The notes under the pieces were generated by a model. The model saw only the letters and a list, made by a program, of their open reading frames with translations. It made no database searches and had not been told where the DNA came from. From an uncultured Ectothiorhodospiraceae bacterium (GTDB lineage Bacteria > Pseudomonadota > Gammaproteobacteria > UBA6429 > Thiohalophilaceae), in assembly GCA_947258695.1 (NCBI GenBank), contig CAMYJG010000007.1:74153-128498 (forward strand): a stretch of DNA of 54,346 nt, read 5' to 3'. A program made the position numbers and the translations under genes. Positions 1,676-41,036 of the stretch are shown piece by piece (the first letter of the stretch is position 1; every line of letters begins with the position of its first letter).

Positions 1676-3001
1676 ATGAAAAGCATGACACGTAATACTC
1701 TTATTCTTGGTTTGGGGCTAATGCTCGGCGTCATGCTGGCAATTGGCCAGGGTGTGCTGGCAGAAAAAGAAAGCCTGAGACAGTCGATGCAATCTATCCC
1801 GCTTGAAGATATTCGTTCTTTGAGTGAAGTGTTCGGCAAAGTTAAGCAAAACTACGTTGAAGAAGTCGAAGATAAAGAATTACTGGAAAACGCTATTCGT
1901 GGATTGCTCACTGGTTTAGATCCACATTCAGCCTACCTGGATAAAGATGCATTTACCGAATTACGAGAAGGCACCAGTGGTGAGTTTGGTGGTTTAGGTA
2001 TTGTTGTTGGATTGAAAGACGGGTTTGTTAATGTTATTTCGCCAATCGATGACACCCCGGCGGCAAAAGCAGGCGTTAAAGCAGGTGATTTAATTATTCG
2101 CCTGGACAAGAAAAATGTTAAAGGCATGAGTTTAGAAGATGCTGTTAGCATTATGCGTGGTAAACCCAAAACCGATATTGTTTTAACGATAGTACGTGAA
2201 GGGGCAGATAAACCACTAGAGATTAAAATCACGCGTGCTATTATCAAGATCCAGAGTGTGCGTAGTAAAACTTTAGATAAAGGATTTGGTTATATTCGTG
2301 TTTCAGCTTTTCAGGAACGTACTGGTGCTGATTTAAGAAAAGCTATTTCCAAGTTAAAAAAAGAAAACAAAAAAAAGCTAAAAGGTTTAGTTCTTGATTT
2401 AAGGAATAATCCCGGAGGTTTATTAAGTGCCGCGGTTGAAGTTTCTGATGCATTTTTAGAAGGTGGCACGGTTGTTAGTATTAAAGGTCGTGATATTTCA
2501 AATACCACAACCTACAGTGCAAAAGGTTTAGACCTGATTAATGAAGCTCCGATAGTTGTTTTAATTAACGGTGGTTCTGCTTCGGCTTCAGAAATTGTAG
2601 CGGGTGCATTACAGGATCATAAACGTGCGATCATAATGGGTACCTTGTCATTTGGTAAGGCTTCTGTACAAACAGTCGTACCCTTAGGTAATGGTAGTGC
2701 ACTCAAGTTAACAACTGCCCGTTACTACACGCCATCGGGAGCCTCTATCCAGGCCAAGGGCATCACACCTGATATAGTTTTAGAAGATCTTAATGTCTCT
2801 GAAAAACAAGACAACGGTTTTAATCGTACTAAAGAAAAAGACTTATCCAGGCATTTAAAAAATGGTGATGACGATGAAGCTGATAATAAAGAGAGTAAAG
2901 CAACTAATGGCAATTTAACCCTGGCTAAAGATGATTATGCGTTATATGAAGCATTAAACTTGTTAAAAGGGATTAGCCTGGTTAAAAACATACAAAGATA
3001 A
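1676..3001 (+). CDS. ctpA: Carboxyl-terminal processing peptidase, S41 family
   Basis: 441 aa. An N-terminal signal or anchor (about residues 8-29) is followed by a helical region, a PDZ domain (from EFGGLGIVVGLKDG) and the S41 protease domain. The catalytic Ser is in INGGSASASEIVAGAL and the Lys in GTLSFGKASVQT, forming the Ser-Lys dyad of C-terminal processing proteases. These periplasmic enzymes trim or degrade envelope proteins, including peptidoglycan hydrolases. The C-terminal tail after about residue 375 is acidic/lysine-rich and low in complexity. The neighbouring envC fits a role in cell-wall turnover. Confidence 0.93.
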   Translation: MKSMTRNTLILGLGLMLGVMLAIGQGVLAEKESLRQSMQSIPLEDIRSLSEVFGKVKQNYVEEVEDKELLENAIRGLLTGLDPHSAYLDKDAFTELREGTSGEFGGLGIVVGLKDGFVNVISPIDDTPAAKAGVKAGDLIIRLDKKNVKGMSLEDAVSIMRGKPKTDIVLTIVREGADKPLEIKITRAIIKIQSVRSKTLDKGFGYIRVSAFQERTGADLRKAISKLKKENKKKLKGLVLDLRNNPGGLLSAAVEVSDAFLEGGTVVSIKGRDISNTTTYSAKGLDLINEAPIVVLINGGSASASEIVAGALQDHKRAIIMGTLSFGKASVQTVVPLGNGSALKLTTARYYTPSGASIQAKGITPDIVLEDLNVSEKQDNGFNRTKEKDLSRHLKNGDDDEADNKESKATNGNLTLAKDDYALYEALNLLKGISLVKNIQR

Positions 3002-3017
3002 TATTTTATTAATCTAC

Positions 3018-3851
3018 ATGAAAAAACGAAATCGACAAATTCAGAATGGATTTCGTTTTTTAACTATCAGCCTGTCACTAGTGACAATGTCATTGGTGCA
3101 GGCTGATACTATTTCTGCAACACTAAAATCACAGCAAACAAATTTTCTAAAACCCGCAATCAGTATTATTATTGATGATATGGGTTATCGTTTAAAGTCA
3201 GGTAAGCGGGCAGTTAATTTACCTGGTGCGTTAGCCTACTCTTTTTTACCTCATGCTCCACATGTGAATGTTTTGTCATTACGTGCCCATCAGCAAAATA
3301 AAGAAGTGATGTTACATTTACCCATGGAAGCCGAGAGTGGGAAAAAATTGGGGCCAGGTGGATTAACTGAATGCATGACAGAAAAAAAATTTAGCAAGGT
3401 ATTAGCAGAAAATATTGAATCGATACCTTATATCACTGGTGTAAATAATCACATGGGAAGCTTATTAACCCGTAGTCCAACCTGGATGAAAAAGTTAATG
3501 CAGCAAGTAGCTAGCGATAAAAATTTATTTTTTGTTGATAGTAAAACAACAAGTAACAGCGTTGCTTTTCAAATTGCAAGAGCAGAAGGTGTACAGAGTA
3601 TTCAGCGAGATATTTTTATTGATCATGAAGAATCAGAAGCTTTTATTTTAAAACAACTTAAATTGTTAATAAGGCGTGCAAAACGAAAAGGAACCGCTTT
3701 AGCGATAGCCCACCCGAAAAAAACCACGCTCGCAGTACTAGAGAAGTGGCTGCCATTATTAGAGGACAAGGGTGTGCAACTGGTTCCAGTGTCTAGTCTG
3801 ATTCGTTTACAACAGGAAAGAAAGTTAGCTATGTGGAAACCAGTTAAATGA
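3018..3851 (+). CDS. Divergent polysaccharide deacetylase family protein (YibQ-like)
   Basis: 277 aa with a signal peptide (hydrophobic residues about 13-29, ending QA). The core starts with ISIIIDDMGYRLKSGKRA, typical of the divergent polysaccharide deacetylase family (DUF610/YibQ) with its conserved DD pair. LHLPMEAE, NNHMGSLLTR, FVDSKTTSNSVAF and ALAIAHPKKTT are further family blocks. The substrate is not established; the NodB-like fold and the location after ctpA suggest envelope glycan modification. It lies 16 bases after ctpA and overlaps the next gene by 4 bases (ATGA). Confidence 0.87.
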   Translation: MKKRNRQIQNGFRFLTISLSLVTMSLVQADTISATLKSQQTNFLKPAISIIIDDMGYRLKSGKRAVNLPGALAYSFLPHAPHVNVLSLRAHQQNKEVMLHLPMEAESGKKLGPGGLTECMTEKKFSKVLAENIESIPYITGVNNHMGSLLTRSPTWMKKLMQQVASDKNLFFVDSKTTSNSVAFQIARAEGVQSIQRDIFIDHEESEAFILKQLKLLIRRAKRKGTALAIAHPKKTTLAVLEKWLPLLEDKGVQLVPVSSLIRLQQERKLAMWKPVK

Positions 3852-9785: not shown

Positions 9786-10265
9786 ATGAAAAATCTTGTC
9801 TTAGTTATTGTATTTATTGTGTTTTCTCCGCAAGTTATCGCTGATTCAGTCAATCTAATTATCAACGGTAAGGCATTTCATCAAAATGATAAAAATTATA
9901 ATGAAAATAACTGGGGCCTGGGTTTTGAGTATAATTTTGAAGAAAAGGATAAATGGATAAATTTTGCTAATGGTGGTTACTTTAAAGACAGTAATAGAAA
10001 CCGTTCTAATTACCTGGGCGGCGGTAGTAAGCGACGTTTCCTACTAAGTGATGATAAAGATGGTTGGCATATTGATGCGGGGTATACTGCCTTTGTTATG
10101 ACACGTAAAGATTTTAAAAATAACCAACCCTTTTTTGCTGCTCTCCCCTTCATTTCAATTGGTACCGAAAAGTTTGCGATTAATGCGACCTATATTCCTA
10201 AAGCCAGTCCCAAACTTGAAGCGTTAGTATTTATTCAGGCATCTTTTCAGCTCTCTCAGTGGTAA
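9786..10265 (+). CDS. PagP-like outer-membrane beta-barrel protein (putative lipid A palmitoyltransferase relative)
   Basis: 159 aa with a signal peptide (about residues 3-19, cleavage near VIADS) and a C-terminal aromatic end (SFQLSQW) typical of outer-membrane barrels. Features recalling PagP: YNENNWGLGFEY resembles the E. coli YNERPWGGGF region, GYFKDSN keeps the FKDS box that holds PagP's catalytic Asp-Ser, and a late TYIP segment is shared. By hand alignment the position of the catalytic His appears to be Asn, with a His a few residues later (KAFHQN). PagP moves palmitate from phospholipid to lipid A. The homology is from recall, so the function is a hypothesis; the barrel assignment is firmer. 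Confidence 0.55.
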   Translation: MKNLVLVIVFIVFSPQVIADSVNLIINGKAFHQNDKNYNENNWGLGFEYNFEEKDKWINFANGGYFKDSNRNRSNYLGGGSKRRFLLSDDKDGWHIDAGYTAFVMTRKDFKNNQPFFAALPFISIGTEKFAINATYIPKASPKLEALVFIQASFQLSQW

Positions 10266-12931: not shown

Positions 12932-14374
12932 TTAGAGCTCAAACTTAGAAAGTTTTTTCTCAACCGCAACGCCTTTAATGCGTACATACTTTGGCATACC
13001 ATCTTTATAAGGTGGATAATCTTCACCTTTGATTAATGGTTCCATGTAAGTACGGCATGCCTTAGTAATACCGAAGCCATCTTTTGAGATAAAGTTTTCC
13101 GGCATCATTTTCTCAACGTTCGCAACTTTACTCAGGTCTGCCATTCCTACTTTCCATTTGAATGGTTTATTTGATATGCGATCAACAGTTGGCATAACTG
13201 AGTTATGTCCTTGAGCGGCAAAATTAACAGCTGCTTTACCCATTGCATAAGCCATGTCGACATCTGTTTTAGATGCTATATGACGTGCGGCGCGTTGCAG
13301 ATAATCGGCAACTGCCCAATGATTTTTCAGGCCAAGTTCAGACTGAATCATGCCTGATATTACGGTTGCTGCACCACCGAGTTGGCTGTGACCAAATGCA
13401 TCTTTCAGCCCACTTTCTGCCAGGAAGCGACCATCTGGCCAATGTACGCCTTCTGATACAACTACTGAACAGTAACCGTGTTTATCCACATTTTTCTGGA
13501 CCTTGGCGAGGAATTTCTCCTGGTCGAACTCAACTTCAGGGAACAGAATAATCGTTGGAATTGGTGTGTCATCAGTTGATGCCAGACCACCCGCGGCTGC
13601 AATCCAGCCAGCATGACGACCCATTACTTCAACAATGAAAACTTTAGTCGATGTTTTTGCCATGGAGTGAACGTCGAAAGAGGCTTCACGAGTAGAAACA
13701 GCAACATATTTTGCAACAGAACCAAAGCCTGGACAGTTGTCAGTAATCGGCAGATCATTATCAACGGTTTTTGGTACATGAATAGCCTGGATTGGGTAAC
13801 CCATTTCTTTTGAAAGTTGAGATACTTTATAACAAGTATCTGCAGAATCACCGCCACCATTATAGAAGAAGTAGCCAATGTTATGTGCCTTGAAAACTTC
13901 AATTAAACGTTCGTATTCACGGCGGTTTTCTTCAATTGATTTTAGTTTAAAACGGCATGAACCAAATGCACCTGATGGTGTATGGCGTAAGGCCTTGATA
14001 GTTGCGGCCGATTCTTTTGATGTGTCAATCAAATCTTCAGTTAATGCACCGATAATACCATTACGACCTGCGTAAACTTTACCAATTTTATTTGATTTAC
14101 GTGCGGCTTCAATCACACCAGCAGCAGACGCATTTATAACTGCTGTTACGCCACCTGATTGGGCGTAGAAGGCGTTTTTAACAGGCTCTTTTGGCTTACT
14201 GGCTTTTTTCTTAGTTTTCTTTTTAGCTGTTTTTTTCTTGGCAACCTTTTTCTTGGTTTTCTTTTTAGCTACTTTCTTTTTACCAGCTTTTTTCTTGCTG
14301 ACTTTCTTTTTTGCTTTTTTCTTTGCGACTTTTTTCTTCGCAACTTTTTTCTTGGCTTTCTTTTTAGCGGCCAT
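12932..14374 (-). CDS. pfp: PPi-type 6-phosphofructokinase with a lysine-rich histone-H1-like N-terminal tail
   Basis: 480 aa. Residues ~68-480 are a phosphofructokinase domain: AQSGGVTAVINASAAG, FYNGGGDSADT and HVPKTVDNDLPITDN. The Lys in PKTVDND replaces the Gly of ATP-dependent enzymes (PGTIDND), and Ser follows GGGD where ATP enzymes have Gly; both favour pyrophosphate as donor, making the reaction reversible. Residues 3-62 are an almost pure Lys/Ala/Val/Thr tail of repeated KKKVAKKK units like histone H1 or bacterial Hc1/AlgP tails, not part of any phosphofructokinase I know. The ATG follows an AAAGGGGAAAACC ribosome-binding site, and no Met lies between the tail and the domain, so the tail is in the predicted protein. 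Confidence 0.92.
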   Translation of the reverse strand: MAAKKKAKKKVAKKKVAKKKAKKKVSKKKAGKKKVAKKKTKKKVAKKKTAKKKTKKKASKPKEPVKNAFYAQSGGVTAVINASAAGVIEAARKSNKIGKVYAGRNGIIGALTEDLIDTSKESAATIKALRHTPSGAFGSCRFKLKSIEENRREYERLIEVFKAHNIGYFFYNGGGDSADTCYKVSQLSKEMGYPIQAIHVPKTVDNDLPITDNCPGFGSVAKYVAVSTREASFDVHSMAKTSTKVFIVEVMGRHAGWIAAAGGLASTDDTPIPTIILFPEVEFDQEKFLAKVQKNVDKHGYCSVVVSEGVHWPDGRFLAESGLKDAFGHSQLGGAATVISGMIQSELGLKNHWAVADYLQRAARHIASKTDVDMAYAMGKAAVNFAAQGHNSVMPTVDRISNKPFKWKVGMADLSKVANVEKMMPENFISKDGFGITKACRTYMEPLIKGEDYPPYKDGMPKYVRIKGVAVEKKLSKFEL

Positions 14375-14691
14375 GGTTTTCCCCTTTAATTAAAAATGAA
14401 AATTTTGTTAGCGTTAAAAAAATAATGCCCGCATTACGGCAGGCATTATATTTGTTCAAGAATTTGTTTCCTTTACAGCTAGAGCAATAATAAGCGCAGC
14501 GCTGACTAAGCTAACTTCAGCATGAGTGAAATTATTATTGATGGTGTCATTCATAAAAATGTACTCTGGGCTTGTTGGTGAAGCCTTTAAAAATCAGCTG
14601 CAAAGCATACTCGATCAATTTCTGAATTGGAAATTTTAACCTTAAACGAGGCTTTGGAAAATTACATTTTATATAGGAGCAAAAGTAGGAT
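14375..14691. other. Gene-free gap between ubiJ and the phosphofructokinase gene
   Basis: 317 bases. It contains the phosphofructokinase ribosome-binding site at its left edge, the minus-strand terminator at 14416-14449 and otherwise no convincing gene. A 19-codon reading frame on the plus strand near 14521 has no ribosome-binding site. The phosphofructokinase promoter must lie here if the gene is not transcribed from ubiJ, but I could not assign one. Confidence 0.6.
14416..14449 (-). terminator. Rho-independent terminator after ubiJ
   Basis: An 8-bp stem ATAATGCC (14422-14429) / GGCATTAT (14442-14449) with a 12-base loop. Read on the minus strand the hairpin runs directly into a T-tract (plus-strand A's at 14416-14422). 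It would end transcription of the hslVU-ubiEJ genes before the phosphofructokinase gene. Confidence 0.8.
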
Positions 14692-38960: not shown

Positions 38961-41036
38961 ATGGATGATATTGACTTGAAAGACCCTGAACTTTATTTAA
39001 ACCGAGAACTCAGCCTGATTCAGTTTCAAAGGCGTGTGCTTGCACAGGCGTCGGATGAGTCCGTGCCATTACTGGAGCGTTTACGCTTTCTTTGTATAAG
39101 TGGTAGTAACCTGGATGAGTTTTTTCAGATCAGGGTAGCCGGTTTGATGCATCGGGCTGCACTGGAATCATCCAGTGGTGATTATGAACATATCACACCA
39201 GAACAAGCACTTCAGCAAATTCGGGAAGAAGCGCATGATTTTGTCGATGAACAGTACCGGGTGTTGAATGACATTTTATTACCCGCATTGGAAGAAGAAG
39301 GTATTCATTTCTTAAAGCGCACAGAGTGGGATGAGAAAAGAGCAGGCTGGATTAAAAGATATTTTACCGGTCAAATTGCGCCGGTACTGAGCCCTTTAGG
39401 GCTTGATCATTCGCATCCTTTCCCGCGTGTTTTTAATATGACGCTTAACTTTATTATTTCACTGCAGGGAAAAGATGCTTTCGGACGGGATAGTCGAATT
39501 GCGATTGTGCAAGCACCCCGAAGTTTACCGCGGATGATTAAATTACCCGATGATTATTCAGACGATGATGAATTTGTTCTATTAAGTTCAATGATTCATG
39601 CTCATATCAGTGATTTATTTCCTGGTATGGATGTCACAGGTTGCCATCAATTTCGTGTTACGCGTGATAGTGACTTATTTGTTGATGAAGAAGAAATTGT
39701 AGATTTGATGCGCGCAATTAAAGGTGAATTGTCCTCTCGTCGATTGACCGATGCTGTTCGACTTGAGGTTGCAGATAATTGTACAGAGGAAGCCGCTAAA
39801 TTTTTACTTAAGAAATTCCAGTTAAGCAATGATGATCTTTACCAGGTAAATGGGCCTGTGAATGTTAGTCGCTTCCTTGAAATGATTGATTTAGTCGATC
39901 GACCAGATTTGAAGTTTGCACCCTTTACACCGGGTATACCAAAACGATTACTAAATTCGCCTGATATGTTTGACGTGATTCAAAACGGCGATATATTATT
40001 AAACCATCCTTTTGAATCATTTGCACCGGTTGTTAATTTTTTAAAACAAGCCGCAAGCGATCCTAAAGTTCTGGCAATAAAACAAACGTTGTATAGAACA
40101 GGTGCAAATTCTCCCCTGGTTGAGGCATTAGTCGAAGCAGCAAAAGCCGGCAAAGAAGTCACCGTTGTTGTTGAATTACGCGCCAGGTTTGACGAAGCAG
40201 CAAACATTGAGCAGGCATCGCGCTTACAGGAAGCCGGCGCGCATGTAGTATATGGTGTGGTGGGTTTTAAAACGCATGCCAAAATGTTACTGGTGGTCAG
40301 ACGTGAAGGACGCACAGTCAAACGCTATGTACACATCGGCACTGGTAATTATCATGCCGGTAATGCACGCGTCTATACCGATTATGGATTTTTAAGTTGC
40401 GATAAAGATATTGGTGAAGATGTACATAAAGTTTTCTTACAATTAACAGGCCTGGGTAAAGCAACCAAGCTAAAAAAATTACTACAAGCGCCTTTTACGC
40501 TTCATAAAGAGCTGATTAAGTTAATTGAGCAAGAAGAAGAAAATGCAAAAGCGGGTAAAGCTGCTCGCATTATTATTAAAGTCAATTCACTCGTTGAGAC
40601 TAAAATTATTCGTTCTTTATATAGTGCATCACAAGCAGGTGTGAAAATCGATTTAATTGTTCGGGGCACTTGTCGCTTAAAACCAGGTTTGAAAGGTGTC
40701 TCAGATAATATACAGGTTCGTTCGATCGTCGGACGGTTTCTTGAGCACCCTCGTATTTATTATTTTGAAAACGAAGGTGAACCGAAGGTATTTTGTTCAA
40801 GTGCAGACTGGATGGACAGAAATTTCTTTAAGCGTGTTGAAGTGTGTTTCCCTGTAGAAGATGAAGCATTGAAAAAACAATTAATCAAAGATGGTTTGAT
40901 GGTTTATTTATCCGATAACACACAGGCATGGCAATTACTCTCTGATGGAAGTTATAAACGCATTCAGCCAGCAAGTAATCAAAAAGAACGCTCAGCACAA
41001 AAAACATTATTAGAAAAAATTGCGGCAGAAATTTAG
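38961..41036 (+). CDS. ppk1: Polyphosphate kinase 1
   Basis: 691 aa, the normal Ppk1 length. The head domain starts PELYLNRELSLIQFQRRVL; the two phospholipase-D-like domains carry GFKTHAKMLLVVRR (His near residue 437, the probable phospho-acceptor) and VHIGTGNYHAGNARVYTDYG, with a second His region in VGRFLEHPRIYYFEN. It polymerises the gamma phosphate of ATP into polyphosphate at the membrane. No Shine-Dalgarno sequence precedes the ATG and no later Met occurs before residue ~75, so the start looks leaderless. It converges on ppx with 9 bases between the stop codons. Confidence 0.96.
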   Translation: MDDIDLKDPELYLNRELSLIQFQRRVLAQASDESVPLLERLRFLCISGSNLDEFFQIRVAGLMHRAALESSSGDYEHITPEQALQQIREEAHDFVDEQYRVLNDILLPALEEEGIHFLKRTEWDEKRAGWIKRYFTGQIAPVLSPLGLDHSHPFPRVFNMTLNFIISLQGKDAFGRDSRIAIVQAPRSLPRMIKLPDDYSDDDEFVLLSSMIHAHISDLFPGMDVTGCHQFRVTRDSDLFVDEEEIVDLMRAIKGELSSRRLTDAVRLEVADNCTEEAAKFLLKKFQLSNDDLYQVNGPVNVSRFLEMIDLVDRPDLKFAPFTPGIPKRLLNSPDMFDVIQNGDILLNHPFESFAPVVNFLKQAASDPKVLAIKQTLYRTGANSPLVEALVEAAKAGKEVTVVVELRARFDEAANIEQASRLQEAGAHVVYGVVGFKTHAKMLLVVRREGRTVKRYVHIGTGNYHAGNARVYTDYGFLSCDKDIGEDVHKVFLQLTGLGKATKLKKLLQAPFTLHKELIKLIEQEEENAKAGKAARIIIKVNSLVETKIIRSLYSASQAGVKIDLIVRGTCRLKPGLKGVSDNIQVRSIVGRFLEHPRIYYFENEGEPKVFCSSADWMDRNFFKRVEVCFPVEDEALKKQLIKDGLMVYLSDNTQAWQLLSDGSYKRIQPASNQKERSAQKTLLEKIAAEI

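Follow-up and report, generated by a model that had tools for sequence, protein, structure and literature searches.

Background

The chlamydial proteins Hc1 and Hc2 are rich in lysine and alanine and have an H1-like composition. In AlgP and PhaF of Pseudomonas a long disordered tail, likewise rich in lysine and alanine and built of a repeated KPAA unit, is joined to a helical partner domain. An enzyme with a lysine-rich disordered tail is found in RNase R of E. coli (S1 and basic C-terminal domain), an RNA enzyme whose basic tail, to our knowledge, is not a regular KKKxA repeat. The part of PMC9239181 on which we draw describes the repeat domain of AlgP as needed for the spacing of polyphosphate granules in P. 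aeruginosa and ties it to DNA binding. Similarly, according to the part of PMC12345225 used here, the S1 and basic domains of E. coli RNase R bind polyphosphate, while its phenotypes in ppk mutants are independent of this binding.

Two annotated enzyme families are also close to the present case; the subfamily of PPi-phosphofructokinases NF010675/PRK14072, with the solved members 3hno and 3k2q, and an adenylate kinase model of 335 positions, NF010381/PRK13808, by which a long kinase is already named in the annotation library. In the open-licence PMC literature we found no account of a fusion as described below, of a tailed adenylate kinase, or of a gene pair made up of adenylate kinase and phosphofructokinase (PFK).

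A PPi-type phosphofructokinase with a lysine tail

The window, by which we mean the whole stretch of 54,346 nucleotides that was analysed, encodes the tailed enzyme and PPK1, which are listed in Table 1 together with tailed proteins from the rest of the genome. An earlier note on this DNA had claimed an intact PPi-type phosphofructokinase carrying PKTVDND, and the profile and structure matches agree with this. NF010675 (diphosphate--fructose-6-phosphate 1-phosphotransferase) exceeded its cut-off of 273 with 657 bits over profile positions 4-415 of 416, Pfam PFK scored 168 bits, and the top solved relative was 3hno (E 3e-222, residues 65-479). The entire catalytic domain is thus held in common with the subfamily, and the window enzyme differs in its tail, which the solved chains 3hno and 3k2q lack since the match starts at position 3 in both. 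PPi would be the donor on the strength of the PKTVDND motif in the domain, which we take to be a mark of PPi-using phosphofructokinases. No further phosphofructokinase came up in a protein search of the own genome at E up to 10; the three other matches were lysine tails on other proteins.

Table 1. Features of the window and lysine-tailed proteins of the genome it comes from
Feature	Position	Strand	Basis
PPi-type phosphofructokinase ORF with lysine tail, 480 aa	12932..14374	(-)	ORF, profile and PDB matches
N-terminal tail, residues 1-62, 38 Lys, net charge +38	14189..14374	(-)	sequence, tandem repeats, pLDDT
Phosphofructokinase domain, residues 66-477	12944..14179	(-)	NF010675 profile, PDB matches
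AGGGG, ribosome-binding-site-like run ahead of tail ATG	14381..14385	(-)	sequence
Polyphosphate kinase 1 (PPK1)	38961..41036	(+)	NF003918, 1110 bits; ~25 kb from PFK
Second adenylate kinase, C-terminal tail of ~180 residues	own genome		profile
Ribosomal protein S2, C-terminal tail	own genome		profile in relative G008
HU-family protein, N-terminal tail	own genome		profile
DksA protein, N-terminal tail	own genome		profile in relative G008
RNase R, C-terminal tail	own genome		profile in relative G008
FHA protein, C-terminal tail	own genome		profile
LysR-type regulator, short C-terminal tail	own genome		label by eye
TonB-like protein, internal lysine stretch	own genome		label by eye
Stand-alone H1-like ORF with frame break	L177 2026-2311, own-genome contig C55	(-)	sequence

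The tail of Lys, Ala, Val and Thr that had been noticed in frame with the enzyme is real. Besides lysine it contains 11 A, 5 V, 3 T, 2 S and one each of M, G and P, with no acidic residue, and tandem repeats at the DNA level fall inside 14195-14366, within the tail. This is not chance composition, because the runner-up 62-residue stretch in the stop-to-stop frames of the window (at least 150 aa) holds 16 Lys. AlphaFold gave pLDDT values of 29-37 in blocks across residues 1-60, from a shallow alignment of 14 sequences; since the model is mediocre in the domain (mean pLDDT 64.9), we used it for tail disorder only.

Being predicted as disordered and rich in Lys and Ala, the tail resembles those of AlgP and PhaF, but its unit is KKKxA and its partner an enzyme, and with a single Pro in 62 residues it has no KPAA repeats. 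The composition is also similar to that of Hc1 and Hc2; a Pfam search with the tail, these families included, returned 0 families at E up to 10. PASK-type targets of polyphosphate are acidic tracts rich in Ser and Lys, and the absence of D and E from residues 1-62 means that the tail has no such tract.

The ATG of the tail is preceded by AAAGGGGAAAACC, with a ribosome-binding-site-like run where such a site had been postulated. As also proposed, no Met lies between tail and domain; ATG, GTG and TTG are all absent from codon 1 to codon 87, which lies within the domain, and Met itself does not recur before residue 191. A translation start behind the tail was rejected on these grounds.

Codon-level constraint on the tail

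Across the family, tail and domain vary together in GC3 at four-fold sites (Spearman rho 0.70, P 6e-5, n=27) and, more weakly, in the share of AAG among Lys codons (Spearman 0.49, P 0.012, n=26). Among 185 isolated KKK triplets in the tails AAAAAAAAA occurs once, where the AAA share of the tails themselves predicts 38.9 occurrences and that of the domains 64.2. This rarity strongly suggests selection for maintenance of the frame, albeit from triplets that are related through duplication and hence not independent. Because of the ribosome-binding-site-like run, the lack of a start before codon 87, the silent sites and the rarity of AAAAAAAAA, the tail is very probably translated.

The tail across the family and beyond

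The family sample consisted of 40 genomes from the sole family of its order in the comparison. PFK matches were obtained in 32 of them at E 1e-60, with a fragment added by G007, and 31 loci were read, as the matched genomes G032 and G035 yielded no locus. All 31 loci, which come from different assemblies, have a basic N-terminus of 12-81 residues with 0-1 acidic residues each, the tail being conserved throughout the family. The tail reaches at least 40 residues in 18 loci and measures 12-29 residues in the other 13; the tail of L019 was counted as 62 from an upstream ATG, where ~42 is likelier, and L005 is truncated at a contig end. By eye, a G-rich run precedes the tail ATG in 13 of 13 relatives inspected (of the 31 loci). 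Five Met codons lie at the domain border, and only that of L033 is preceded by even a weak AGG.

Outside the family the leaders in the sampled loci are mostly of ~3-9 residues, for instance MAKKNAFYAQSGG, and they are short in the Nitrosomonadaceae, Rhodocyclaceae and Gallionellaceae read. Longer basic leaders were seen in other families, with 33 residues in L115, 44 in L116 and 27-30 in L122-L124, and leaders of 29-36 residues in L052, L046 and L043, whose records are titled Acidiferrobacterales or Acidiferrobacteraceae. The matches in the plasmid collection (70 records) start at query residue 62 or later in the 20 listed, hence the tail is absent from these.

In a tree of 60 domains 12 family rows with tails of ~42-66 residues group in one clade (100/95), and L006-L008, with tails of 54-81 residues, in a separate one (100/99), which joins the short-tailed L024, L029 and L121 (99/91). 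Long tails therefore had at least two origins, or were transferred, or were shortened in between. The PFK domains of L001 and L005 stand well apart in the tree, in another clade than those of L006-L008, which belong to the same genus; this points to transfer or to an ancient duplication.

The interpretation given in the earlier note holds in part. By the conservation and codon evidence the tail is genuine, its translation is very probable, and a tether-like nature is supported. The picture of a singular fusion between a histone tail and a glycolytic enzyme is not supported, as short leaders grade into long tails and other proteins share the tail. A recent fusion with an H1-like gene is likewise not favoured, because the relatives form a graded length series. 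The repeats might still have been captured from the stand-alone H1-like gene, which starts with similar residues.

Other lysine-tailed proteins in the same genomes

To list further tails we used one DNA pattern, KKKxxKKK, so that tails lacking it escape the count; the sites in L216, L230, L231, L234, L236 and L175 were left out of the tail counts. The own genome has 44 sites, against 6 in a backward control. All 40 family genomes have sites, 36 of them at least 10, whereas among 227 other genomes of the class 124 have any site and 32 at least 10, the latter figure being by eye with a backward control that is also high in several.

In four relatives (G008, G037, G028 and G026) we found tailed S2, H1-like protein and PFK in all four, tailed DksA in three, tailed adenylate kinase in three (G026 being the exception), and tailed HU-like protein in two, with tailed FHA protein, RNase R and thiolase in one each. 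Helical proteins like AlgP and PhaF with a KKKxA tail were recognised by eye in two relatives (L224 and L229), Pfam matches being weak and below threshold. The KKK(V/A/T)A tail, as read from these sequences, is thus common to a set of proteins and not peculiar to PFK.

Some further observations concern single members. A ParB-like protein with an N-terminal lysine tail occurs in two of the four relatives (L213 and L228), under the Pfam cut-off. The thiolase of G008 (L215 279-1667 (-)) has a short KKK tail at its N-terminus, and no PPi link was seen for it. The DksA of the same genome matches HC2 under the cut-off (26.5 versus 40 bits). The stand-alone H1-like gene on C55 starts MAAKKKAKKKVAKKK, and its frame break falls inside the repeat; just upstream, at roughly 2500-3180, several AT-rich tandem copies of ~115 bases were seen by eye.

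A tailed adenylate kinase next to PPi genes

Kinase matches were present in 39 of 40 family genomes at E 1e-40, and 29 had two or more. They are of two kinds. The first, with 69-93% identity to the query in the core, has a long frame and was detected in 32 of 40 genomes, G024 and G034 at contig edges included; the second shares ~50% identity and usually has the normal length. The tailed kinase was thus not found in 8 of 40. The lysine tail is visible in 28 of 30 loci of the first kind, the other two (L186 and L199) ending at a contig edge before it. The three tailed kinases tested are adenylate kinases by NF001380 (297-311 bits versus a cut-off of 251) and miss the cut-off of NF010381 (204-221 bits versus 426, with the best match over residues 1-127 only). 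Many family genomes that have the tailed kinase carry a normal-length kinase elsewhere. In G216 (family f36, L243) the kinase tail closes with GEEKGQEESSQEK repeats, which resemble the lysine repeat in a shifted frame.

In an even sample of the class 119 of 369 genomes match the kinase at E 1e-75. A kinase was here called tailed when its open frame reached at least 300 aa; of the 26 loci read among the 119 (L240-L265), 25 have a basic tail and one is tailless (L263, frame 222). With 150 of 261 PFK matches listed, the positions of both genes are available for 69 of the 119 genomes, and among the matches listed kinase and PPi-PFK are divergent neighbours in 52 of the 69, with match ends 173-882 bases apart. 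Such a pair is formed by 50 of 65 long-frame and 2 of 4 short-frame kinases, again among the matches listed. The 15 non-adjacent long-frame cases include four in the window's family, and two further ones, G296 and G391, where a PFK start stands beside the kinase at the contig end.

Seen from the other side, 80 named PFK loci have a kinase in the flank in 53 cases, of which 50 were read. Eighteen of these kinases are tailed, all on the strand opposite to PFK, and 32 are tailless, on the same strand as PFK except in L053; the latter include the Nitrosomonadaceae, Rhodocyclaceae and Gallionellaceae read. As tailless kinases (32 loci) and 2 of 4 short-framed ones also adjoin PFK, the gene link needs no tail, and by these sequences it is older than the tail or independent of it.

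None of the 30 tailed-kinase loci of the window's family has a PFK match. Here the tailed kinase adjoins a soluble pyrophosphatase in 25 of 30 loci and a membrane pyrophosphatase in three, L171, L218, L238 and L239 being examples of one or the other, with no pyrophosphatase lying within ~1.5 kb at the remaining two; both pyrophosphatase families were confirmed by profile on one example each. All 40 family genomes contain the membrane enzyme, which also flanks PFK in 54 of the 80 named loci. Tailed kinase with a pyrophosphatase neighbour was also found in G060, G207 and G314 of family f22, which are without a PPi-PFK match at E 1e-120. Considering these neighbours, we read the gene order as showing that the tailed kinase goes with PPi genes in general.

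Possible role of the tail

Reactions that convert ATP to AMP and PPi, such as tRNA charging, yield the two products together; adenylate kinase consumes AMP, and PPi-phosphofructokinase or a pyrophosphatase consumes PPi. PPi-phosphofructokinase and the second adenylate kinase are the recurring metabolic members of the tailed set, and we give a probability of about 50% to the reading that the tail serves as a polyanion tether for these enzymes of AMP and PPi recycling. The tail would be a disordered polycation holding PFK on a cellular polyanion, and PFK would be one of a family protein set that shares it. The tails might concentrate kinase and PFK in the nucleoid and ribosome zone, so that the PPi economy would run near its source. 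We infer binding, location and benefit from the observed tail, its conservation, the coding constraint, the tailed set and the gene neighbourhood, which together hint that energy-recycling enzymes may be held on DNA, RNA or polyphosphate in the cell. Because S2, HU-like protein, DksA, RNase R and H1-like proteins carry the tail as well, nucleic acid or ribosomes are favoured as its partner. Against a tether for PPi recycling stand the facts that most tailed proteins are nucleic-acid proteins, that the G008 thiolase lacks a PPi link, that many family PFK tails (13 of 31) are only 12-29 residues long, and that tail lengths of PFK and kinase are uncorrelated (rho -0.17, P 0.52, n=17), as well as the gaps in the distribution of the tailed kinase (8 of 40 family genomes), its presence in the f22 genomes and the existence of the gene link with tailless kinases too.

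It is rather unlikely, in our estimate, that the tail is a non-adaptive expansion, in which an ancestor's brief lysine leader, of the kind of MAKKNAF, was lengthened through repeat slippage in an organism with a tendency to KKK repeats and tolerated with no specific function. The leader lengths, graded from ~3-9 residues in most sampled outsiders to 81 inside the family, the DNA-level repeats and the lack of a length correlation are all consistent with it, as is the abundance of KKKxxKKK sites in the family, with the reservation about the control made above. Slippage alone is countered by the scarcity of acidic residues (0-1 per tail in all 31), the silent sites that track the domain, the near absence of AAAAAAAAA (from triplets that are not independent) and the occurrence of long tails in two or more distinct clades.

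Polyphosphate would be the main alternative ligand of the tails. That it is the true one, with PPi-PFK and the second kinase docked on polyphosphate granules and their PPi and ADP chemistry coupled to polyphosphate turnover, we hold to be improbable. The precedents of AlgP (in the part of PMC9239181 used) and of RNase R (in that of PMC12345225), the latter KKK-tailed here, speak for it, together with the AlgP/PhaF-like proteins sharing the KKKxA tail. The polyphosphate kinase that had been reported in the window, recovered as PPK1, is a further point in its favour; as linkage evidence it was rejected because of its distance from PFK, and PPK was not recognised in the tailed-kinase flanks inspected by eye. 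Furthermore, the PFK tail has neither KPAA unit nor PASK tract, and the tailed S2, HU-like, DksA and H1-like proteins point to nucleic acid instead.

An annotation artefact, with translation beginning past the tail or the tail being an assembly error, is highly improbable and largely refuted by sequence, for although repetitive lysine DNA is prone to misassembly and one lysine-rich own-genome gene (on C55) has a frame break, basic tails occur in all 31 loci from different assemblies and no start codon precedes codon 87.

Returning to the recycling tether, we consider a fuller version of it doubtful. A shared poly-lysine tag would gather PPi-PFK and a dedicated kinase with S2, DksA, RNase R and H1-like proteins on a polyanion where AMP and PPi arise, the genes being linked, in many Gammaproteobacteria, either mutually or with pyrophosphatase genes, so that the waste of translation and transcription would feed glycolysis and the tail would have grown on the second enzyme once the family's gene linkage was lost. 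The PFK tail may have lengthened after the gene pair split in the window's family; a strict rule of this kind is disfavoured, since G170 and G377 keep the kinase-PFK pair intact and yet have PFK tails of 33-44 residues.

Whether enzymes of central metabolism are physically anchored to nucleic acid or polyphosphate is rarely testable in bacteria, and the natural series of tail lengths, the tailed and untailed kinases in many of the same genomes and the conserved PPi-gene pair offer a clean test system. If true, the tether would also explain why many Gammaproteobacteria have long adenylate kinases with lysine tails.

Elsewhere in the window, a PagP-like protein is encoded at 9786-10265 (+), scoring 64 bits, below the model cut-off of 155.
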